Source: Prevotella sp.
GTDB lineage: Bacteria > Bacteroidota > Bacteroidia > Bacteroidales > Bacteroidaceae
Direction: 5' to 3'
NCBI GenBank assembly: GCA_017940545.1
Contig: JAGAYI010000059.1
Coordinates: forward strand, 1 to 64,000
Length of the DNA: 64,000 nucleotides
Shown here: one piece after another, positions 6,906-25,954 of the stretch
Numbering within the stretch: position 1 is the first letter of the stretch
How the letters are laid out: each line of letters opens with the position of its first letter
Program-made: the position numbers and the translations under genes
Notes under the pieces: model-generated
Databases searched by the model: none
The model's input: the letters and a program-made list of their open reading frames with translations, nothing else
What the model was told of the DNA's origin: nothing

Positions 6906-7799
6906 TTAATATCTTTTAAGGTTTCGGACTATCTTTTCGCGCATTTTCCGGCGCAGCTCCTCGGGTTGAAGCACTTCGAGTCCGTCGCCGTAGGAGAGCA
7001 GCTGGGCAAGAAAATCGGCAGTAGGGCGCAGGTCAAGAGAAAAGTCTGTATGGTCGGCCGTAGAGGCCATTTCGCGTTGCGAATGGTGCAGCGGCAGGGT
7101 ACGCAGATAGTCGGGTGTCTTACCATAGGTGCGCACTACGATATGAGCAGGGGGCGTACCATCGGTCAGCACACCGTAATAGTCGGAGAAATACTCCTGA
7201 GACGAGAAGCATTGCGGCAACGCGAAATGCTCGTCGGTCAAGCTGACGGAACACATGCGGTCAAGGGCGTAGATGCGCATTTGTCCGTCGTCCTGCTTTC
7301 TTGCCAACAAGTACCAGCGCTGCCGGAACAGTTTAAGCACATAGGGGCATACCGTTTTTACATACCCCTCGGTGCCGAACTTTCTGTAGCTGATGAGCAG
7401 GCAACGGTTGGTTTTGATGGCCTGGATAATGACGTCGAGAAATTCCAGTCCTGCCGGCACGTTCTCAAGCATCACGCGTTCCTTTACGGCGCTACAGTCG
7501 GCCAGCACGCCATGGACGGTCAACGTAGAGAAAAGCCATCGTTCCATGGAGTTATCGGCCAACACCTCAGGATTGCTGATATAGTAGCGGTAGGTGGTCT
7601 TGTTGCAGTCGATAATAACGCCAAACATGTCGAGGATGGCATCGCGGTGGCGGTTGAACGACGATCGCTTCAAGGGATTGCCTTCAGCGACTTGGTCGTC
7701 CTGCCACTTGCGGTTGAGCTCGCCGAGGGTCAGAGCGCCACAGGACTTGAGGGTGTTAATCAGCCAGACGTACTGGTGAAACAGCTGAGCAGGTTTCAT
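6906..7799 (-). CDS. WYL-domain transcriptional regulator
   Basis: A 297-aa protein with an N-terminal winged-helix-like region (about 1-70, LGELNRKWQDDQV then RSSFNRHRDAILDMFG). A WYL ligand-sensing domain (about 115-215) carries RWYLLARKQDDGQMRIYALD. A WYL C-terminal extension follows. Members of the family bind DNA and sense nucleic acids or small ligands. The start is 32 bases after the tyrA stop with no terminator between, so it is probably the last gene of the aromatic operon. Whether it regulates that operon cannot be told from sequence. Confidence 0.88.
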   Translation of the reverse strand: MKPAQLFHQYVWLINTLKSCGALTLGELNRKWQDDQVAEGNPLKRSSFNRHRDAILDMFGVIIDCNKTTYRYYISNPEVLADNSMERWLFSTLTVHGVLADCSAVKERVMLENVPAGLEFLDVIIQAIKTNRCLLISYRKFGTEGYVKTVCPYVLKLFRQRWYLLARKQDDGQMRIYALDRMCSVSLTDEHFALPQCFSSQEYFSDYYGVLTDGTPPAHIVVRTYGKTPDYLRTLPLHHSQREMASTADHTDFSLDLRPTADFLAQLLSYGDGLEVLQPEELRRKMREKIVRNLKRY

Positions 7800-7831: not shown

Positions 7832-8626
7832 TTACTTCCTGATTTCTATGTCGCGTTTCACGTTGTTGCGTATCTTCGTCAGGTAGCCCTTCATGCCTGC
7901 CGCGTCCTTCTGGTCGATGATTTCCAGCAGTTCCTTCAGCTCGGTGCGTATCTGGCTCACCTGGTCGTGGGTGTAGGGGTTGAAGAGTATTTCCTGCAGC
8001 AGGTAGTCGTCTTCGTTGAGCACACCCTTGGCTATGCGCATGTGGCGCTTGAAGGTGGTGCCGGGCGCGTCCTGGTGCTTCATGACGGCGGCGAAGACAA
8101 AGGTGGAGACGAAGGGGATGGAGAGTGAGTATGCCACGGTCTTGTCGTGCTCCTCGAAGGTGTATTCGTAGATGTTCAGCCCCAGCTTCTGGTAGAGGTC
8201 CTTGAAGAAGATGCGCCCCATGTAGTCGCCCTCGCTGATGATGATGGCGTTCTCCTCGCTAAGCTGCTGCAGGTTGGCAAACGTGGGACCGAACATGGGG
8301 TGGGTGGAGACATAGCGCATGCCTGACTGCTCGTAAAACTCCCGGAGGTCGGTCTTCACGGAGGCAATGTCGCTGATGATGCACTCCTTGGGCAGATAGG
8401 GAATGACCTCCTTGAACACGGGAATGGTGTATTTCAGCGTCACGGCATTGATGACGAGCTCGGGCCGGAACTGGCGTATTTCCTCCATCTGCGTGAAGCG
8501 CTGACAGTTATAAGTGAAGCGCATGCGCATCGGGTCTTTCTCGAACACGGCCACTTCGTGGTCGAAGCTCAGCAGGTCGATGAAGAAGCTTCCCATCTTG
8601 CCTGCTCCCATTACTAATATTTTCAT
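7832..8626 (-). CDS. tyrA: Prephenate dehydrogenase
   Basis: A 264-aa protein that oxidises prephenate to 4-hydroxyphenylpyruvate, the precursor of tyrosine. The N-terminal Rossmann fold starts MKILVMGAGKMGSFFIDLLS. SDIASVKTDLREFYEQSG (near 95-112) and STHPMFGPTF (near 116-125) match TyrA substrate and cofactor regions. The C-terminal half is helical. The start is 13 bases after the DAHP synthase-chorismate mutase gene. There is no chorismate mutase domain here because it is fused to the upstream enzyme. Confidence 0.92.
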   Translation of the reverse strand: MKILVMGAGKMGSFFIDLLSFDHEVAVFEKDPMRMRFTYNCQRFTQMEEIRQFRPELVINAVTLKYTIPVFKEVIPYLPKECIISDIASVKTDLREFYEQSGMRYVSTHPMFGPTFANLQQLSEENAIIISEGDYMGRIFFKDLYQKLGLNIYEYTFEEHDKTVAYSLSIPFVSTFVFAAVMKHQDAPGTTFKRHMRIAKGVLNEDDYLLQEILFNPYTHDQVSQIRTELKELLEIIDQKDAAGMKGYLTKIRNNVKRDIEIRK

Positions 8627-8639
8627 GGAATTGAAAAGT

Positions 8640-9704
8640 TTACTTGTTAATAATCTCTATTTGCTGGCGTACTGACTCTTCGTGTATGCTCTCAAAGACT
8701 TTGGCCACGAACTCGGGACCCATGCCGCACAGGGCTCCCTGTGCGCCGCGCTTGTCGAGTATCTCGTTGTAGCGGCTGGTCTGCAGCACGGTCATGTTGT
8801 GTTCTTTCTTGTATTGGCCTATCTCGCGGCACACGCGCATGCGCTTGCCTAACAGTTCCATGAGCTGGTTGTCAAGTTCGTCTATCTGCTTGCGCAGCTG
8901 CGTGATGCCTTCGGTGGTGACGTGCTCGTCGCGTATGACGAGCAGCGAGAGGATGTAGTCAAGCACGTCGGGCGTCACTTGCTGTTTGGCGTCGCTCCAC
9001 GCCTTGTCGGGGTCGCAGTGGCTCTCGACGATGAGTCCGTCGAAGTCCAGGTCCATGGCCTGCTGGCAGAGCGGGGCTATGAGCTCGCGCCGTCCGCCGA
9101 TGTGGCTGGGGTCGCTGATGATGGGCAGGTCAGGTATGCGGCGCTTCAGCTCGATAGGTATCTGCCACATGGGCATGTTACGGTAAATCTTCTTGTCGTA
9201 GCTGGAGAAGCCGCGGTGTATGGCCGCCATGCGCTTCACGCCAGCCTGGTTCAGGCGCTCCATGGCTCCTATCCAGAGCTCGAGGTCGGGGTTGACGGGG
9301 TTCTTGACGAACACCGGCACATCGACACCTTTCAGCGCATCGGCCAGGGCCTGCATGGCAAAGGGGTTGGCTGAGGTACGGGCACCAATCCACAGGATGT
9401 CGATGCCGTACTTCAGGCAGAGTTCCACGTGTTCGGGTGTTGCCACCTCGGTAGCCACGAGCATGTGGGTCTCGTCCTTCACGCGCTTCAGCCAGGGCAG
9501 GGCTTTCTCGCCGTTGCCCTCGAAGCCTCCGGGCTTCGTGCGCGGTTTCCACACGCCGGCCCTGAAGTTGTGGCAGCCAAAGCTGGCCAGCTGACGGGCG
9601 GTTGTCATTACTTGCTCCTCGGTCTCGGCGCTGCAGGGGCCTGCAATGACGAAGGGGCGTTCGTTGTCACTCGGTAAGTTCAAAGGTTTTAATTCCAGTT
9701 CCAT
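8640..9704 (-). CDS. aroG: Bifunctional DAHP synthase / chorismate mutase
   Basis: A 354-aa fusion. Residues 1 to about 260 are a class I DAHP synthase of the short KDO8P-like type (FVIAGPCSAE, AGVWKPRTKPGGFEG, IHRGFSSYDK, DPSHIGGRRELI, ESHCDPDKAWSDA). This enzyme catalyses the first step of the shikimate pathway. Residues about 265-354 are an AroQ chorismate mutase (LRKQIDELDNQLMELLGKRM) that makes prephenate for the neighbouring tyrA and pheA products. In related fusions the mutase domain mediates feedback inhibition. A 125-bp gap containing a GC-rich inverted element pair separates it from the aminotransferase gene. Confidence 0.93.
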   Translation of the reverse strand: MELELKPLNLPSDNERPFVIAGPCSAETEEQVMTTARQLASFGCHNFRAGVWKPRTKPGGFEGNGEKALPWLKRVKDETHMLVATEVATPEHVELCLKYGIDILWIGARTSANPFAMQALADALKGVDVPVFVKNPVNPDLELWIGAMERLNQAGVKRMAAIHRGFSSYDKKIYRNMPMWQIPIELKRRIPDLPIISDPSHIGGRRELIAPLCQQAMDLDFDGLIVESHCDPDKAWSDAKQQVTPDVLDYILSLLVIRDEHVTTEGITQLRKQIDELDNQLMELLGKRMRVCREIGQYKKEHNMTVLQTSRYNEILDKRGAQGALCGMGPEFVAKVFESIHEESVRQQIEIINK

Positions 9705-9710
9705 AAAGGC

Positions 9711-9856
9711 CCACCCCCTGTCCCTCCCTGTATGGAGGGGAGTAGAATGTTTGTCGGGGGTATTCTACTGCTATTATTATTTCATTCTTTTAATTTACTT
9801 GTTAGTGTAGAGTGTGACCACTCCCTCCCTCACAGGGAGGGCGGGGGGAGGGTCTC
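9711..9856. repeat. Inverted pair of GGGAGGG-type intergenic elements
   Basis: Two related elements face each other. 9711-9740 contains the hairpin CCCTCC/GGAGGG, and 9823-9852 contains an 8-bp perfect stem (CCCTCCCT / AGGGAGGG) with a 3-base loop. The reverse complement of the first aligns with the second. The second holds a G-quadruplex motif on the + strand at 9835-9852. The aminotransferase stop codon (9830-9832) lies inside the second hairpin. Confidence 0.7.
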
Positions 9857-11026
9857 TTCTATCCTTTGGAGTGCTGCCTGTATTTTCTCTTCCTTTGCAC
9901 ACAGCGATATGCGGATATAGCGATTGCCGTTCGAGCCGAAGATGAAGCCAGGCGTAATGAACACACGGGCCTCGTGGAGCACGCGCTCCGTCAGGTCTTC
10001 CACGTTCTGGTAGCTGTCGGGAATGCGCCCCCAGAGGAACATGCCCACCTGGTTGGGGTCGTAGGTACAGCCCAGAACCTGCATAATCTGCTCTGCATAT
10101 TTTCTGCGGGCGGCATAGCGGCTGACGTTGGCCTCGCGGTGCCACTCGTCGCTATTCCGGTAGGCCTCGGCTGCAGCCAGCTGTATGCCACGGAAGGTGC
10201 CGCTCTCTATGTTCGACTGCACCTTCAGAATCCAAGAGATGAACTGCGCATTGGTGGCACAGAGTCCCACGCGCCATCCGGGCATGTTGTGGCTCTTCGA
10301 CATGGAGTTGAACTCTATGCAGCAATCCTTGGCCCCCGGCACCTGGAGAATGCTCAGGTGTTCCTCACTCAAGATGAAGGAGTAAGGATTGTCGTTGACC
10401 ACCACCACGCCGTGTTCCTTGGCGAAGCGTACCAGCCGCTCGTAAGTCTCCCTGCGGGCTCTTCCGCCGGTGGGCATGTTGGGGTAGTTCGTCCAGAGCA
10501 GTCGGCACTTTGTAGTCTTGTCGCTGACTATTGCCTCCAACTGCTCAAAGTCGGGCTGCCAGCCGTTGTCCTCCAGCAGGTCGTAGTTGATGATGTTGGC
10601 CCCTAACAGCTTCGAGAGCGACGTGTAAGTGGGATACCCCGGATTGGGCACCAACACGCTGTCGCCTGGGTTGACGAAGGCCAGCGTCACGTGCAGGATG
10701 CCTTCCTTCGAGCCGATCAGCGGCAGCAACTCGCTCTTCGGGTCGAGCTCAACGTCATACCAGCGCTTATAGAAGCCGGCCATGGCCTGGCGCAGCTCCG
10801 GCGTGCCCATGGTGGGCTGATAGCCGTGGGCACCAGGCTGTCGTGCCACCTCACAGAGTTTCTCTATCGTCTGTTCCGAGGGTGGCATGTCGGGGCTGCC
10901 AATGGCCAAGCTGATGATGTCTTTTCCCTCGGCGTTCAGCTGTGCCACTTCCTTCAGTTTACGGCTGAAGTAGTATTCCTGCACTAAGTTCAGTCTTTCG
11001 GCAGGTTTAATTTGTCTGCTTTCCAT
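9830..11026 (-). CDS. PLP-dependent aminotransferase (aromatic amino acid type, class I/II)
   Basis: A 398-aa fold-type I aminotransferase. Visible markers are IGSPDMPPSEQTIEKL (substrate loop), PLIGSKEGILHV, NPGYPTY, WTNYPNMPTGG (PLP-contacting Asn-Pro region), NDNPYSFIL and the Schiff-base lysine in NSMSKSHNMPGWRVG near residue 240. In this operon it most likely converts phenylpyruvate and hydroxyphenylpyruvate to Phe and Tyr; that is context inference, and it could also act as an LL-diaminopimelate or alanine-type enzyme. Its start overlaps the pheA end by 20 bases. Its last residues (PPPSL) are encoded by the repeat element at 9823-9852. Confidence 0.88.
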   Translation of the reverse strand: MESRQIKPAERLNLVQEYYFSRKLKEVAQLNAEGKDIISLAIGSPDMPPSEQTIEKLCEVARQPGAHGYQPTMGTPELRQAMAGFYKRWYDVELDPKSELLPLIGSKEGILHVTLAFVNPGDSVLVPNPGYPTYTSLSKLLGANIINYDLLEDNGWQPDFEQLEAIVSDKTTKCRLLWTNYPNMPTGGRARRETYERLVRFAKEHGVVVVNDNPYSFILSEEHLSILQVPGAKDCCIEFNSMSKSHNMPGWRVGLCATNAQFISWILKVQSNIESGTFRGIQLAAAEAYRNSDEWHREANVSRYAARRKYAEQIMQVLGCTYDPNQVGMFLWGRIPDSYQNVEDLTERVLHEARVFITPGFIFGSNGNRYIRISLCAKEEKIQAALQRIEETLPPPSL

Positions 11027-11849
11027 CCTTATATTCTCCTAATATTTTTAAGTCCTTCGTCAGTGGAATAATAGCGTCAATGGACTGGCGGTAGCGCGTC
11101 AGGTCATCGTACATCACATCTACATAGAACAGGTACTCCCACTCTCTGCCGATGATGGGCAGCGACTGTATCTTGGTCAGGTTGATCTTGTAGAACGACA
11201 GGATGGCCAGCACGTGGCTCAGCGACCCTTCCTCGTGAGGCAGCGAGAAGACGATGCTCGACTTGTTGGCCTCGGTCAGCGGCCGCAGCATGTCGGCCTT
11301 GTTGGGATTGCTCACCACGAGGAAGCGCGTAAAGTTGTGCTTGTTGTCCTCTATGTGGTCTTCGAGCACCCTCAGCCCGTACTGCCGTGCCGCATCGGCA
11401 TGACAGATGGCGGCCCAGCCCTTCCGGCCCTCCTCGGCTATCATCTTGGCCGAGCCTGCGGTGTCCTCGGCCTCTACGTTCTTCATACGCGGATGCTGGC
11501 TGAGGAACTGCCGGCACTGCATCAAGGCCACGGGGTGCGAGTGTACCTCCTCGATGCTCGCCCAGTCGTCGTCGGGCAGGCAGCAGATGCAGTGGCTGAT
11601 GTGCAGCTTGTGCTCGCCCACCACGCTGCAGCCCGAGTCACGGAGCAGCTCGTAGTTGTGGAGCAGGCTGCCGGCTATGGTGTTCTCAATGGCTACCATG
11701 CCGATGAGCGTGGGGTCCTGGCGCATCTGGCTGAACACCTCCTCGAACGTGGCGCAGCATACCAGCTGTATCTGCTCGTTCTCAAAGTACAGGTGGGCGG
11801 CTATGTCGTGGAACGACCCTGTGAGTCCTTGTATGGCTATTCGTTTCAT
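11007..11849 (-). CDS. pheA: Prephenate dehydratase
   Basis: A 280-aa enzyme making phenylpyruvate from prephenate. The catalytic domain (1 to about 185) has GLTGSFHDIAA, VAIENTIAGSLLHNYELL, HPVALMQCRQFL and the conserved NFTRFLVVS threonine motif. A C-terminal ACT domain (about 195-275, IVFSLPHEEGSLSHVLAIL) would bind Phe for feedback inhibition. No mutase domain is present. It is the first large gene of the aromatic operon and starts 15 bases after the U-run of the attenuator terminator, so its transcription should be controlled by the leader. Confidence 0.93.
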   Translation of the reverse strand: MKRIAIQGLTGSFHDIAAHLYFENEQIQLVCCATFEEVFSQMRQDPTLIGMVAIENTIAGSLLHNYELLRDSGCSVVGEHKLHISHCICCLPDDDWASIEEVHSHPVALMQCRQFLSQHPRMKNVEAEDTAGSAKMIAEEGRKGWAAICHADAARQYGLRVLEDHIEDNKHNFTRFLVVSNPNKADMLRPLTEANKSSIVFSLPHEEGSLSHVLAILSFYKINLTKIQSLPIIGREWEYLFYVDVMYDDLTRYRQSIDAIIPLTKDLKILGEYKDGKQTN

Positions 11850-11863
11850 TTCTTCTTCATTCT

Positions 11864-11902
11864 AAAAAAAACTCCGCTTGCACTTGGTCTGTGAAGCGGA
11901 GT
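11864..11902 (-). terminator. Attenuator terminator in the aromatic operon leader
   Basis: The minus strand has a 9-bp stem ACTCCGCTT / AAGCGGAGT, extended by CAC/GTG with one bulged C, followed by eight T. It sits directly before pheA. Its 5' arm can instead pair with 11952-11962 near the leader-peptide stop, so the two structures exclude each other. Confidence 0.88.
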
Positions 11903-11962
11903 CCTATCGTTTTTTAATTATTATTCTATAATTTTTCATCTTATACGGCCATCCGCTTCACA
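11890..11962 (-). promoter_or_regulatory. Antiterminator pairing segments of the aromatic leader
   Basis: The segment at 11952-11962 (TGTGAAGCGGA in the transcript, covering the leader stop codon) is perfectly complementary over 11 bases to 11890-11900 (TCCGCTTCACA), which forms most of the terminator's 5' arm. A ribosome that reaches the stop codon masks the first segment and allows termination. A ribosome stalled earlier on aromatic codons leaves it free to form the antiterminator. Confidence 0.85.
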
Positions 11963-12014
11963 CGTTCCATGCAAAGTAAAAGTAATAGCCGTAAAAGTAA
12001 TTGTTGTTCGCCAT
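11958..12014 (-). CDS. Aromatic-operon leader peptide (attenuation peptide, 18 aa)
   Basis: The ATG at 12014 gives MANNNYFYGYYFYFAWNV and then TGA. Nine of the residues from 6 to 16 are aromatic: 5 Tyr, 3 Phe and 1 Trp, the three end products of the pathway served by the downstream genes. It lies between a promoter (12056-12063) and the attenuator. Its stop codon overlaps the antiterminator segment, the classical layout of ribosome-mediated attenuation. It is too short to be found by length-based gene calling. The regulatory role is inferred from this arrangement. Confidence 0.88.
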   Translation of the reverse strand: MANNNYFYGYYFYFAWNV

Positions 12015-12055
12015 CTTGTTGTATGTTCGATTTACTGATTTTGATTTATCGGGTA

Positions 12056-12086
12056 CAAAAGTATAACTTTTTCCCGAAACGAACAA
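12056..12086 (-). promoter_or_regulatory. Promoter of the aromatic operon
   Basis: The minus strand reads TTTG/TTG (12084-12087), a spacer of about 20 bp and TACTTTTG (12056-12063). Transcription would start near 12049 and give a leader of about 200 nt before pheA. Confidence 0.75.
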
Positions 12087-12115
12087 ACAAATTGTAAGAA
12101 ATTTTCATAAAAATG

Positions 12116-13933
12116 TTACTTTTTCCATTTCAGCCGCAGGCTGTTCAGCACAACGCTCACCGAACTCATGGCCATCAAGGCCGCTGCCCACATGGGCGTT
12201 ATCTGGAAGTCGCAGAGGTCGCGCAGGGCTCCGGCTGCCAGGGGAATACATATTATATTATATATAAAGGCCCAAAACAGGTTCTGGTGTATCATGCCTA
12301 CTGTACGCCTTGACAGACGAATGGCCTCGGGTATGCGCCTCAGGTCGCCCGTCATCAGCGTCAGCTGTGCCACATCCATGGCCACGTCCGTTCCACCGCC
12401 CATGGCAATGCTCACGTCGGCCACGGCCAGTGCCTGGCTGTCGTTGATGCCGTCGCCCACCATGGCCACCACCCTGCCCTCCTGCTGCAGCTGGCGCACT
12501 AAGTGCTCCTTGTCCTGCGGCATGACGCCGCTCTGCCAGTGCCTGATGCCAGCCTCACGAGCCCAGCGGCTCACCTTCTCTTCCTTGTCGCCGCTCATCA
12601 TGTAGAGGTCTATCCCCATCTGCTGCAGCTCGTTGATGGCTTCACGGGCGTGGGGCTTTAGCGTTTCCTCTCCCCCGGGGGCCTGTGTCTGTGTCACCGT
12701 CCCCGTCTTATCTACCACCATTGCCCTGACGCGGTGAATCAGCTCCAAGGCTGTAGCGTCCTTGATGAGGATGTTCTTCTTGGCCGCCTTGCCTATGCCC
12801 ACCATCAGAGCCGTCGGCGTGGCTAACCCCATGGCACAGGGGCATGCAATGACCAGCACGCTGACAGCCGACAGCACCGCCTGCGACACATCGCCACCCA
12901 CGAGGTACCACAACAGAAAGGTGAGCAGGGCGATGCCGCCCACCACAGGCACAAAGATGAGCGCTACCCGGTCAACCACCCGCTGCACGGGAGCCTTCGA
13001 GCCCTGCGCCTCCTGCACCATGCGTATCATGTTCGAGAGCACCGTGTCTTTACCCACCTGCGTGGCCTTGAACTGCAGTGTGCCGTCCTTCAGCAGCGTT
13101 CCCGACAGCACCTTGCTGCCCGGCTGCTTCTGCACCAGTTCCGACTCGCCCGTCATGACACTCTCATCCACACGTGCCTCGCCGCCTACCACCATGCCGT
13201 CAACGGGTATCTTCTCGCCGGCACGCACCTCTATCGTGTCGCCCTTCTGCAGGGCTGAGATGGGAACCTCTACACCCTCAACCCTCGCCGTCTTAGGCTG
13301 CAGCCCCATCAGCTCACGGATGGCCGAGGCCGTGCTGTTCTTAGCCCGTTCCTCAATGAGCCGACCCGTCAGCACGAAAGTAATGATCATGATGGAAGCG
13401 TCGAAGTAGGTGTAGCCCTGCCCCCAGAAGGTGACGTACGTGCTGTAGAGAAACGAGATGCCCGTAGAGAGGGCCACCAACGTGTCCATGTTAGCCGACA
13501 ACTGTGTCAGCTGTTTCCATGCCGTCACGTAAAAGCCGCGCCCGCAATACAGCAGGTTACACAAGGCTATGAGCATCATGGTCTGATTGGCCGCGCTCTG
13601 TGGCTTAACATCTAACCACTTCATACTCACGGCCATGCAGAACGCGGCGAACAACCATGACAGCAACACCCTGCGGCGCAACTGGACGTAACGGCGGCGC
13701 TCTATGGCCTCCACGTTGCGGTCTTCCTCAATCACCATGTCGTAGCCAGCCTTCGTGACAGCCTCCTTCAACCCCTCGGCCGTTACTACGTGCTCGTCGA
13801 AATCAATGAGCGCCGAGCGTCCCGGCAGGTTCACACTCACTTCCCTGACGCCCTCCACGGCGGCGAGCGTCTTCTCAACACGGGCAGAACAGCCCGCGCA
13901 CATCATTCCAAGTACGGCAAATGTCTTTTTCAT
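12116..13933 (-). CDS. copA: P1B-type heavy-metal (copper-like) ATPase lacking a full N-domain
   Basis: A 605-aa transporter. Residues 3-68 are an HMA domain with the metal motif GMMCAGCSARV. Membrane helices and the actuator domain follow, with the phosphatase motif VMTGES near 265. The metal site is in ACPCAMGLATPTALM near 361, the phosphorylation motif is DKTGTVTQ near 407, and GDGINDSQA is near 489. In ordinary CopA proteins about 190-200 residues separate DKTG from GDGIND; here there are about 82. The ATP-binding N-domain with its SEHP motif is missing while the frame stays open. Copper export is the likely family role, but activity is uncertain. Confidence 0.85.
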   Translation of the reverse strand: MKKTFAVLGMMCAGCSARVEKTLAAVEGVREVSVNLPGRSALIDFDEHVVTAEGLKEAVTKAGYDMVIEEDRNVEAIERRRYVQLRRRVLLSWLFAAFCMAVSMKWLDVKPQSAANQTMMLIALCNLLYCGRGFYVTAWKQLTQLSANMDTLVALSTGISFLYSTYVTFWGQGYTYFDASIMIITFVLTGRLIEERAKNSTASAIRELMGLQPKTARVEGVEVPISALQKGDTIEVRAGEKIPVDGMVVGGEARVDESVMTGESELVQKQPGSKVLSGTLLKDGTLQFKATQVGKDTVLSNMIRMVQEAQGSKAPVQRVVDRVALIFVPVVGGIALLTFLLWYLVGGDVSQAVLSAVSVLVIACPCAMGLATPTALMVGIGKAAKKNILIKDATALELIHRVRAMVVDKTGTVTQTQAPGGEETLKPHAREAINELQQMGIDLYMMSGDKEEKVSRWAREAGIRHWQSGVMPQDKEHLVRQLQQEGRVVAMVGDGINDSQALAVADVSIAMGGGTDVAMDVAQLTLMTGDLRRIPEAIRLSRRTVGMIHQNLFWAFIYNIICIPLAAGALRDLCDFQITPMWAAALMAMSSVSVVLNSLRLKWKK

Positions 13934-25523: not shown

Positions 25524-25557
25524 AGTATATCAGCCCATTAAGAATAAACACAAACAG

Positions 25558-25954
25558 TGGAGATGGAGGGGTTCGAACCCTCGTCCGCACAAGGAAACCA
25601 TACGCTTTCTACACGCTTATTCCAGTCTTCATTTTCGAGTGCTGCCAAGACCTGGACCACCAAGCAGCACCTTATCCTCAAAAACTTCATCCCTGCATCG
25701 AGGCCTGCAAAGACTATTTCCGATTTAACCTGCACCGCTTGATCTCTGGATTCGGAACAACATCCTCGGAGCGATGTCTCGTTCTCCTACCTGGTAAGAG
25801 AATTAAGCTCGTAATCTACTGTGCTTCGATTAAGCAGCGAGAGCATACTTATTGTTGCCAATTAATTTTCTGTTCACTCAGATTTAGGAGGTAGCCAACG
25901 AGCCTCCGCGTGCTTACGTACCATCTCATCTTGCCGTCAAATCCAGTCATCCCC
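25558..25954 (-). ncRNA. ssrA: Transfer-messenger RNA (tmRNA)
   Basis: The 5' end GGGGATGACTGGATTTGACG (25954 down) and the 3' end with the T-arm GAGGGTTCGAACCCCTC and acceptor strand CATCTCC are typical of tmRNA. The 7-bp acceptor stem pairs GGGGATG with CATCTCC, with one G-T pair. CCA is not encoded. The tag frame at 25830-25859 reads GNNKYALAA and then TAA, close to known Bacteroidales tags ending YALAA. It rescues stalled ribosomes and tags the products for proteolysis. Length is about 397 nt. Confidence 0.95.
25830..25859 (-). other. tmRNA proteolysis-tag reading frame
   Basis: Encodes GNNKYALAA and a TAA stop within ssrA. The C-terminal ALAA is the protease recognition end. Confidence 0.92.

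Follow-up and report, generated by a model that had tools for sequence, protein, structure and literature searches.

Sequence evidence for a predicted leader-peptide attenuator reading Phe and Tyr ahead of pheA in Bacteroidia

Ahead of the pheA operon of a Prevotella sp., within the 64,000-nucleotide stretch of DNA that was analysed (the window), lies a leader that is very probably a ribosome-mediated transcription attenuator of the trp/phe type and that is predicted to read phenylalanine and tyrosine, but not tryptophan. A translation-dependent attenuator with a Tyr/Phe leader peptide had been proposed at this position by the sequence-only reading, and conservation among relatives, pairing-swap tests between families and a match of leader codons to operon content lend that proposal strong support at the level of comparative genomics.

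Layout of the pheA leader

The leader and the genes that follow it comprise these features:

12056..12087, minus strand: putative promoter of the Bacteroidota type, assigned from sequence (TTTG at 12087-12084, 20 nt, then TACTTTTG, of the form TAnnTTTG, at 12063-12056)
11958..12014, minus strand: leader ORF MANNNYFYGYYFYFAWNV, 18 codons, ATG to GTG TGA, with its TGA stop at 11960-11958
11973..11999, minus strand: putative control codons Y6 F7 Y8 G9 Y10 Y11 F12 Y13 F14, assigned from sequence and from the tracking of operon content by Phe/Tyr content
11970..11976, minus strand: segment 1 (CTTTGCA), which closes the aromatic run and pairs on folding with 11962-11956 as the protector hairpin
11993-11984 with 11953-11944, minus strand: outer arm of the 1:2 hairpin, from folding
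11952..11962, minus strand: segment 2, TGTGAAGCGGA, the antiterminator arm, which holds the leader stop codon and is the exact complement of 11900-11890
11890..11902, minus strand: segment 3, the terminator 5' arm (11902-11894) and the partner of segment 2 (11900-11890)
11864..11879, minus strand: segment 4, the terminator 3' arm (11879-11871) and a T run to 11864
11007..11849, minus strand: pheA, prephenate dehydratase (PDT; PF00800, 194 bits), start at 11849
9830..11026, minus strand: class I/II aminotransferase (Aminotran_1_2; PF00155)
8640..9704, minus strand: DAHP synthase-chorismate mutase fusion, here called aroG (PF00793, DAHP_synth_1, and PF01817, CM_2)
7832..8626, minus strand: tyrA, prephenate dehydrogenase (PDH_N; PF02153)
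6906..7799, minus strand: WYL-domain protein (WYL and WCX; PF13280 and PF25583), the end of the gene run

Along the minus strand the order is thus promoter, leader ORF, segment 2, segment 3, segment 4 with its T run, and pheA; a P-type ATPase gene on the same strand ends upstream at 12116. The short leader ORF bears a run of end-product codons, with five Tyr, three Phe and one Trp among residues 6-16 of MANNNYFYGYYFYFAWNV, and the Pfam content of the operon shows it to make Phe and Tyr, the amino acids predicted to be read. The promoter pattern TTTG-N17-23-TAnnTTTG was present at 43 of 46 same-genus loci tested versus 1% of shuffled sequences. Elsewhere in the window, a tmRNA gene is encoded at 25555-25954 on the minus strand (RF00023, 141.9 bits).

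Between the leader and the first structural gene is an intrinsic terminator, in which ACTCCGCTT (11902-11894) pairs with AAGCGGAGT (11879-11871) to form a stem of -19.6 kcal/mol (z -5.7), followed by a run of eight T (11871-11864) whose first T doubles as the last stem base and which lies 14 bases from pheA. A simple terminator scan of the window reported none at the leader because its loop limit is 8 bases and the loop here is longer. The bases at 11900-11890, TCCGCTTCACA, are the exact reverse complement of segment 2 (11962-11952), and computed energies together with the swap tests described below indicate that this antiterminator excludes the terminator. Whereas only two alternative structures had been envisaged from the sequence alone, folding yields a third, a 1:2 hairpin in which CTTTGCA pairs with TGTGAAG of segment 2 within an outer stem. 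The three structures are alike in computed energy, at -19.1 (1:2), -20.9 (2:3) and -19.6 (3:4) kcal/mol, computed on stretches of 56, 91 and 43 nt, respectively.

The leader ORF, the terminator and the competing pairing are present in the window as first described, and they stand out above shuffled sequence. The combined terminator and segment-2 score is 52.5, compared to 33.7 for the top one of 300 dinucleotide shuffles, and when the terminator was held fixed and the upstream sequence shuffled, 0 of 200 shuffles matched the window's segment-2 score. The 190-nt leader folds with a z of -4.14, which 0 of 200 shuffles equalled. Among 65 upstream stretches of relatives, 58 beat all 300 of their shuffles. 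The segment-2 match given the terminator alone was reached by at most 10 of 200 shuffles at 52 of 63 loci and is often weak in single loci, as in L056, L058 and L063, where 56, 77 and 41 of 200 shuffles did as well.

From this layout we propose the following mechanism. Transcription would start near 12050, and the leader ORF would be translated behind the polymerase. With ample charged tRNA-Phe and tRNA-Tyr, the ribosome would reach the stop codon and mask segment 2, leaving segment 3 to pair with segment 4 and transcription to terminate at 11864. Were tRNA-Phe or tRNA-Tyr short, the ribosome would be expected to stall within the Tyr/Phe run, at about Y8-F14, and to mask segment 1 instead, in which case segment 2 could pair with segment 3, letting polymerase read through into pheA-aminotransferase-DAHPS/CM-tyrA. 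With no translation at all, the 1:2 hairpin would sequester segment 2 and favour termination.

Few leaders have their stop inside segment 2 as in the window: this is so at 10 of the 112 same-genus and named loci that could be read, and at 95 of the 112 the ORF is longer and its stop lies 21 nt past the start of segment 2. In either arrangement, a ribosome at the stop should mask at least part of segment 2. We also observed, at 21 of 47 same-genus loci (e.g. L016), a small AAGTTG...CAACTT hairpin just after segment 2 that carries the leader stop codon in its loop and is possibly a pause site.

Occurrence and pairing across Bacteroidia

The leader recurs widely. A search of 100 relatives identified PheA in 67 of them, and an aromatic leader was seen by eye in each of 65 upstream stretches, a set that excludes L061, which ends at a contig end; the scoring script placed a terminator in 64 of the 65 (not in L008) and a plainly wrong one in L037. 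An ORF qualifying as aromatic was present at 78 of 80 named loci, mostly from Prevotella and relatives and also including Phocaeicola vulgatus ATCC 8482, and at 28 of 29 loci sampled at the class and phylum level. Across Bacteroidales and other Bacteroidia, automated calling recovered leader, segment 2 and terminator in the correct order at 126 of 141 pheA loci, these being the window and 140 fetched loci (20 and 120) chosen among the matches, with some contig-end and most phylum-level matches left out; one of the 126 calls (L233) rests on a wrong ORF. Relatives lacking the mini-ORF or the alternative pairing had been named as evidence that would speak against the proposal, and for the most part it withstands this comparison. 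PheA was matched in 140 of 295 genomes at the order level and in 258 of 296 at the phylum level. No PheA was matched in the remaining 155 of 295 Bacteroidales genomes, and numerous members of the order may therefore be without this route to Phe.

Fifteen of the 141 loci were uncalled. The element is visible by eye in four of them (L259, L272, L274 and L290) and one (L239) lies at a contig end; in the other ten it is absent from the stretch read. These element-less loci include four f118 genomes, L230 (full operon, in a genome of 1.2 Mb), the lone pheA genes L207 and L224, and L311 and L312, which sit inside a longer operon. At L277, L280, L283 and L285, all of family f118, and in the L322/L323 regions, pheA is without a leader, and in two of these leaderless-pheA genomes (G586 and G644) a Tyr/Phe leader is present at the tyrA-aroG unit.

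A pattern joining the end of the aromatic run to segment 2 had one match per genome in 49 of 80 same-genus genomes and zero in a reversed control, and in all 39 of these 49 genomes for which the place of pheA is known the single match lies directly before it; the window's own leader has a longer spacer and for that reason does not fit the pattern. In one family (L084 and L286), two units of leader ORF and terminator stand in series before pheA, and the tandem leaders of these genomes read MARLNNNYFYSYYFYFSKWGLGNCCIL then MFYYYFFYYP, and MRAFNNNCFYYSYYFYFSKWGLSNCCVN then MRNTYSFNLSQEQYYFYFYYFTKLVGL.

The pairing of segments 2 and 3 is supported by their co-variation. Because the sequence of segments 2-4 varies between families, each segment 2 could be scored against its own segment 3 and against those of other families. 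Own pairing scored 21.4 versus 15.3 for foreign pairing in 19 families and 21.5 versus 15.3 in 55 families, and when the terminator was chosen blind to segment 2, 57 families gave 21.09 versus 15.33; in each of the three comparisons, 0 of 20000 permutations were as high. For single loci the result is less clear: own pairing outscored 95% of the foreign pairings in 20 of 55, as expected given that many families share a CCCG core.

The protector hairpin is a feature of the window's genus. Of 121 same-genus and named leaders, 113 match the pattern C-TTY-RCN ... TGYVRAG. In all 111 distinct leaders among these, the seven pairs of the CTTTRCA:TGYRRAG hairpin are intact; four of the pairs are forced by the search pattern itself and three are free to fail. 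One of the free pairs involves the third base of a four-fold Ala/Thr codon, which is A in all 111. Where this codon starts with A the partner base is T in 20 of 20 cases, and where it starts with G the partner is T or C (Fisher p 0.07). The 1:2 hairpin was stabler than its own shuffles in all 60 leaders tested, with a mean z of -2.9.

Leader codons and operon content

As proof of coding, nucleotide diversity gave a mixed result, with values of 0.16, 0.36 and 0.38 at codon positions 1, 2 and 3 and with the final codons before segment 2 invariant at the nucleotide level in the same-genus comparison. We therefore built the case for a translated leader on operon content. The first three lone-pheA loci that we encountered have Phe and no Tyr in the control run, and the hypothesis that leader codons follow the operon came from these; family f142 and five of the eight lone loci were added afterwards. 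With lone pheA defined by a leader and a downstream sequence of 2.3 kb or more, the eight loci (families f19, f29, f39 and f142) have leaders that are nearly all Phe, with a Tyr share of 0-0.20. By contrast, where pheA is the first gene of an operon that also encodes DAHP synthase-chorismate mutase and/or tyrA, the leaders mix Phe and Tyr, and the Tyr share averages 0.43 and is at lowest 0.18 (118 loci, 52 families). This difference is significant by Mann-Whitney test at 2.4e-6 by locus and at about 0.001 by family (4 versus 52, averaged within families that are not fully independent), figures that include three hand corrections (L233, L254 and L259); without them, the test gives 1.7e-5 by locus and 0.0011 by family with seven lone loci. 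With the corrections, the family means of the two groups do not overlap.

Split operons provide a natural experiment and, within what sequences can tell, our best evidence that amino acids are sensed. Five of the eight lone-pheA genomes (G077, G087, G564, G446 and G097) have a separate aroG/tyrA unit with its own Tyr and Phe leader, G097 having tyrA at a contig end in place of an aroG-tyrA unit. Pooling one genome per family across four families, the pheA leaders contain 28 Phe and 1 Tyr versus 16 Phe and 19 Tyr in the aroG/tyrA leaders (Fisher 7e-6). No aroG/tyrA leader was called in the other three lone-pheA genomes (G569, G629 and G599), where there is little upstream sequence or a contig end truncates it, nor at the second aroG copies of two lone-pheA genomes (L364 and L365). 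Four further genomes (G455, G484, G586 and G644) have pheA without a leader and an aroG-tyrA unit with one. This correspondence makes metabolic sense, as pheA alone leads only to Phe and DAHP synthase-chorismate mutase serves both amino acids. Together, these comparisons point to what is likely an ancient attenuator for both Phe and Tyr, present throughout Bacteroidia, that had its codons retuned as operons rearranged (Phe-only at split pheA, Tyr-enriched at aroG-tyrA) and was serially doubled in at least one family.

Alternative signals and known systems

The sequence-only reading had one peptide apparently sensing all three aromatic amino acids, and the data on tryptophan weigh against this part of it. 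Trp does occur at W16 of the window's peptide and in 32 of 126 control runs, as compared to Phe in 126 and Tyr in 120, and the other 94 runs are without it. W16 begins at 11969, only 7 nt ahead of segment 2, and given the size of the ribosome footprint a ribosome waiting there should overlay segment 2; a stall for Trp would then mimic plenty rather than hunger. The operon has no Trp-specific step, and trpB (identified by TIGR00263) is preceded in the same genome by a leader ORF of its own (L087), MTKLMNAWWWRNSRFK, with the run WWW. This ORF lies inside the genome's one match to Bacteroid-trp (RF01692), at 43.6 bits against a cut-off of 49. Trp is thus probably not sensed by the pheA leader, and a single leader that reads all three amino acids appears unlikely. 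In the same genome, which is 70.5% complete, a search for HisG found none and inspection by eye upstream of ilvD revealed no leader.

Still less probable is an RNA switched by a signal other than tRNA charging, be it a metabolite that the RNA binds, the WYL protein or a nascent-chain arrest peptide. A WYL-domain gene does end the gene run and the codons just ahead of segment 2 are invariant, yet those invariant bases form one arm of the 1:2 hairpin, the leader matches no Rfam family, and the order and length of the peptide vary widely while its Phe/Tyr content is tied to the operon, which neither a metabolite pocket nor a fixed arrest sequence would explain. That the terminator merely ends transcription of the P-type ATPase gene, which is on the same strand with the terminator downstream, and that mini-ORF and pairing are incidental, is highly improbable given the conserved promoter that separates the ATPase gene from the leader ORF, the recurrence of leader and pairing before pheA in many families despite other upstream genes, and the fact that in split operons they accompany pheA or aroG-tyrA.

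If the Phe/Tyr attenuator operates as proposed, it would equip Bacteroidia, gut Prevotella and Phocaeicola among them, with a widespread means of sensing amino acids for aromatic synthesis; such control has so far been little described in this group. It would account for many unannotated ORFs of 18-30 codons before pheA, and the split operons, in which leader codons track enzyme content, would be a direct case of codons acting as sensor specificity. The leader data speak against Trp as a signal at pheA.

An Rfam covariance search at the gathering threshold gave no match at the pheA leader, Phe_leader and Bacteroid-trp included, and extending the search to E 10 gave just two chance matches, both sub-threshold and on the opposite strand. 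This phylum may be included in a comparative survey (Lopatovskaya et al. 2010). We found no published description of this leader in Bacteroidales in a search that was short on subscription journals, which agrees with the earlier statement that no such example was known to its author. That statement is tempered by a precedent in the same phylum and at the same gene, namely Flavobacterium psychrophilum, for which strong clues of leader-peptide attenuation before amino-acid operons are reported and whose pheA and hisG 5' elements are family-conserved without Rfam hits (PMC9723704); the passages of that account that concern these elements give no sequence, Phe/Tyr logic or Bacteroidales members. 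Small ORFs reminiscent of leader peptides are also mentioned for the B. thetaiotaomicron transcriptome (PMC7366714). Bacteroid-trp RNA (RF01692) is a Bacteroidetes leader before trp genes (Weinberg 2010, PMC2864571) and differs from the pheA leader in its Trp codons and its genes, and it has no match there.

Among characterized attenuators, a close counterpart is E. coli pheL (Phe_leader), which shares a leader peptide rich in the end product, the 1:2, 2:3 and 3:4 pairings and a terminator before pheA. It reads Phe only and precedes a lone pheA, whereas the window's leader has Phe and Tyr codons before a combined Phe-Tyr operon, along with a Bacteroidota promoter and no Rfam sequence match. 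A single peptide with codons for each end product of its operon is likewise found in the E. coli ilvGMEDA and thr leaders, albeit for other amino acids. The predicted attenuator would thus be of a kind already known, to which our comparisons would add a Bacteroidia Phe/Tyr leader that matches no Rfam family and an instructive link between leader codons and operon content.
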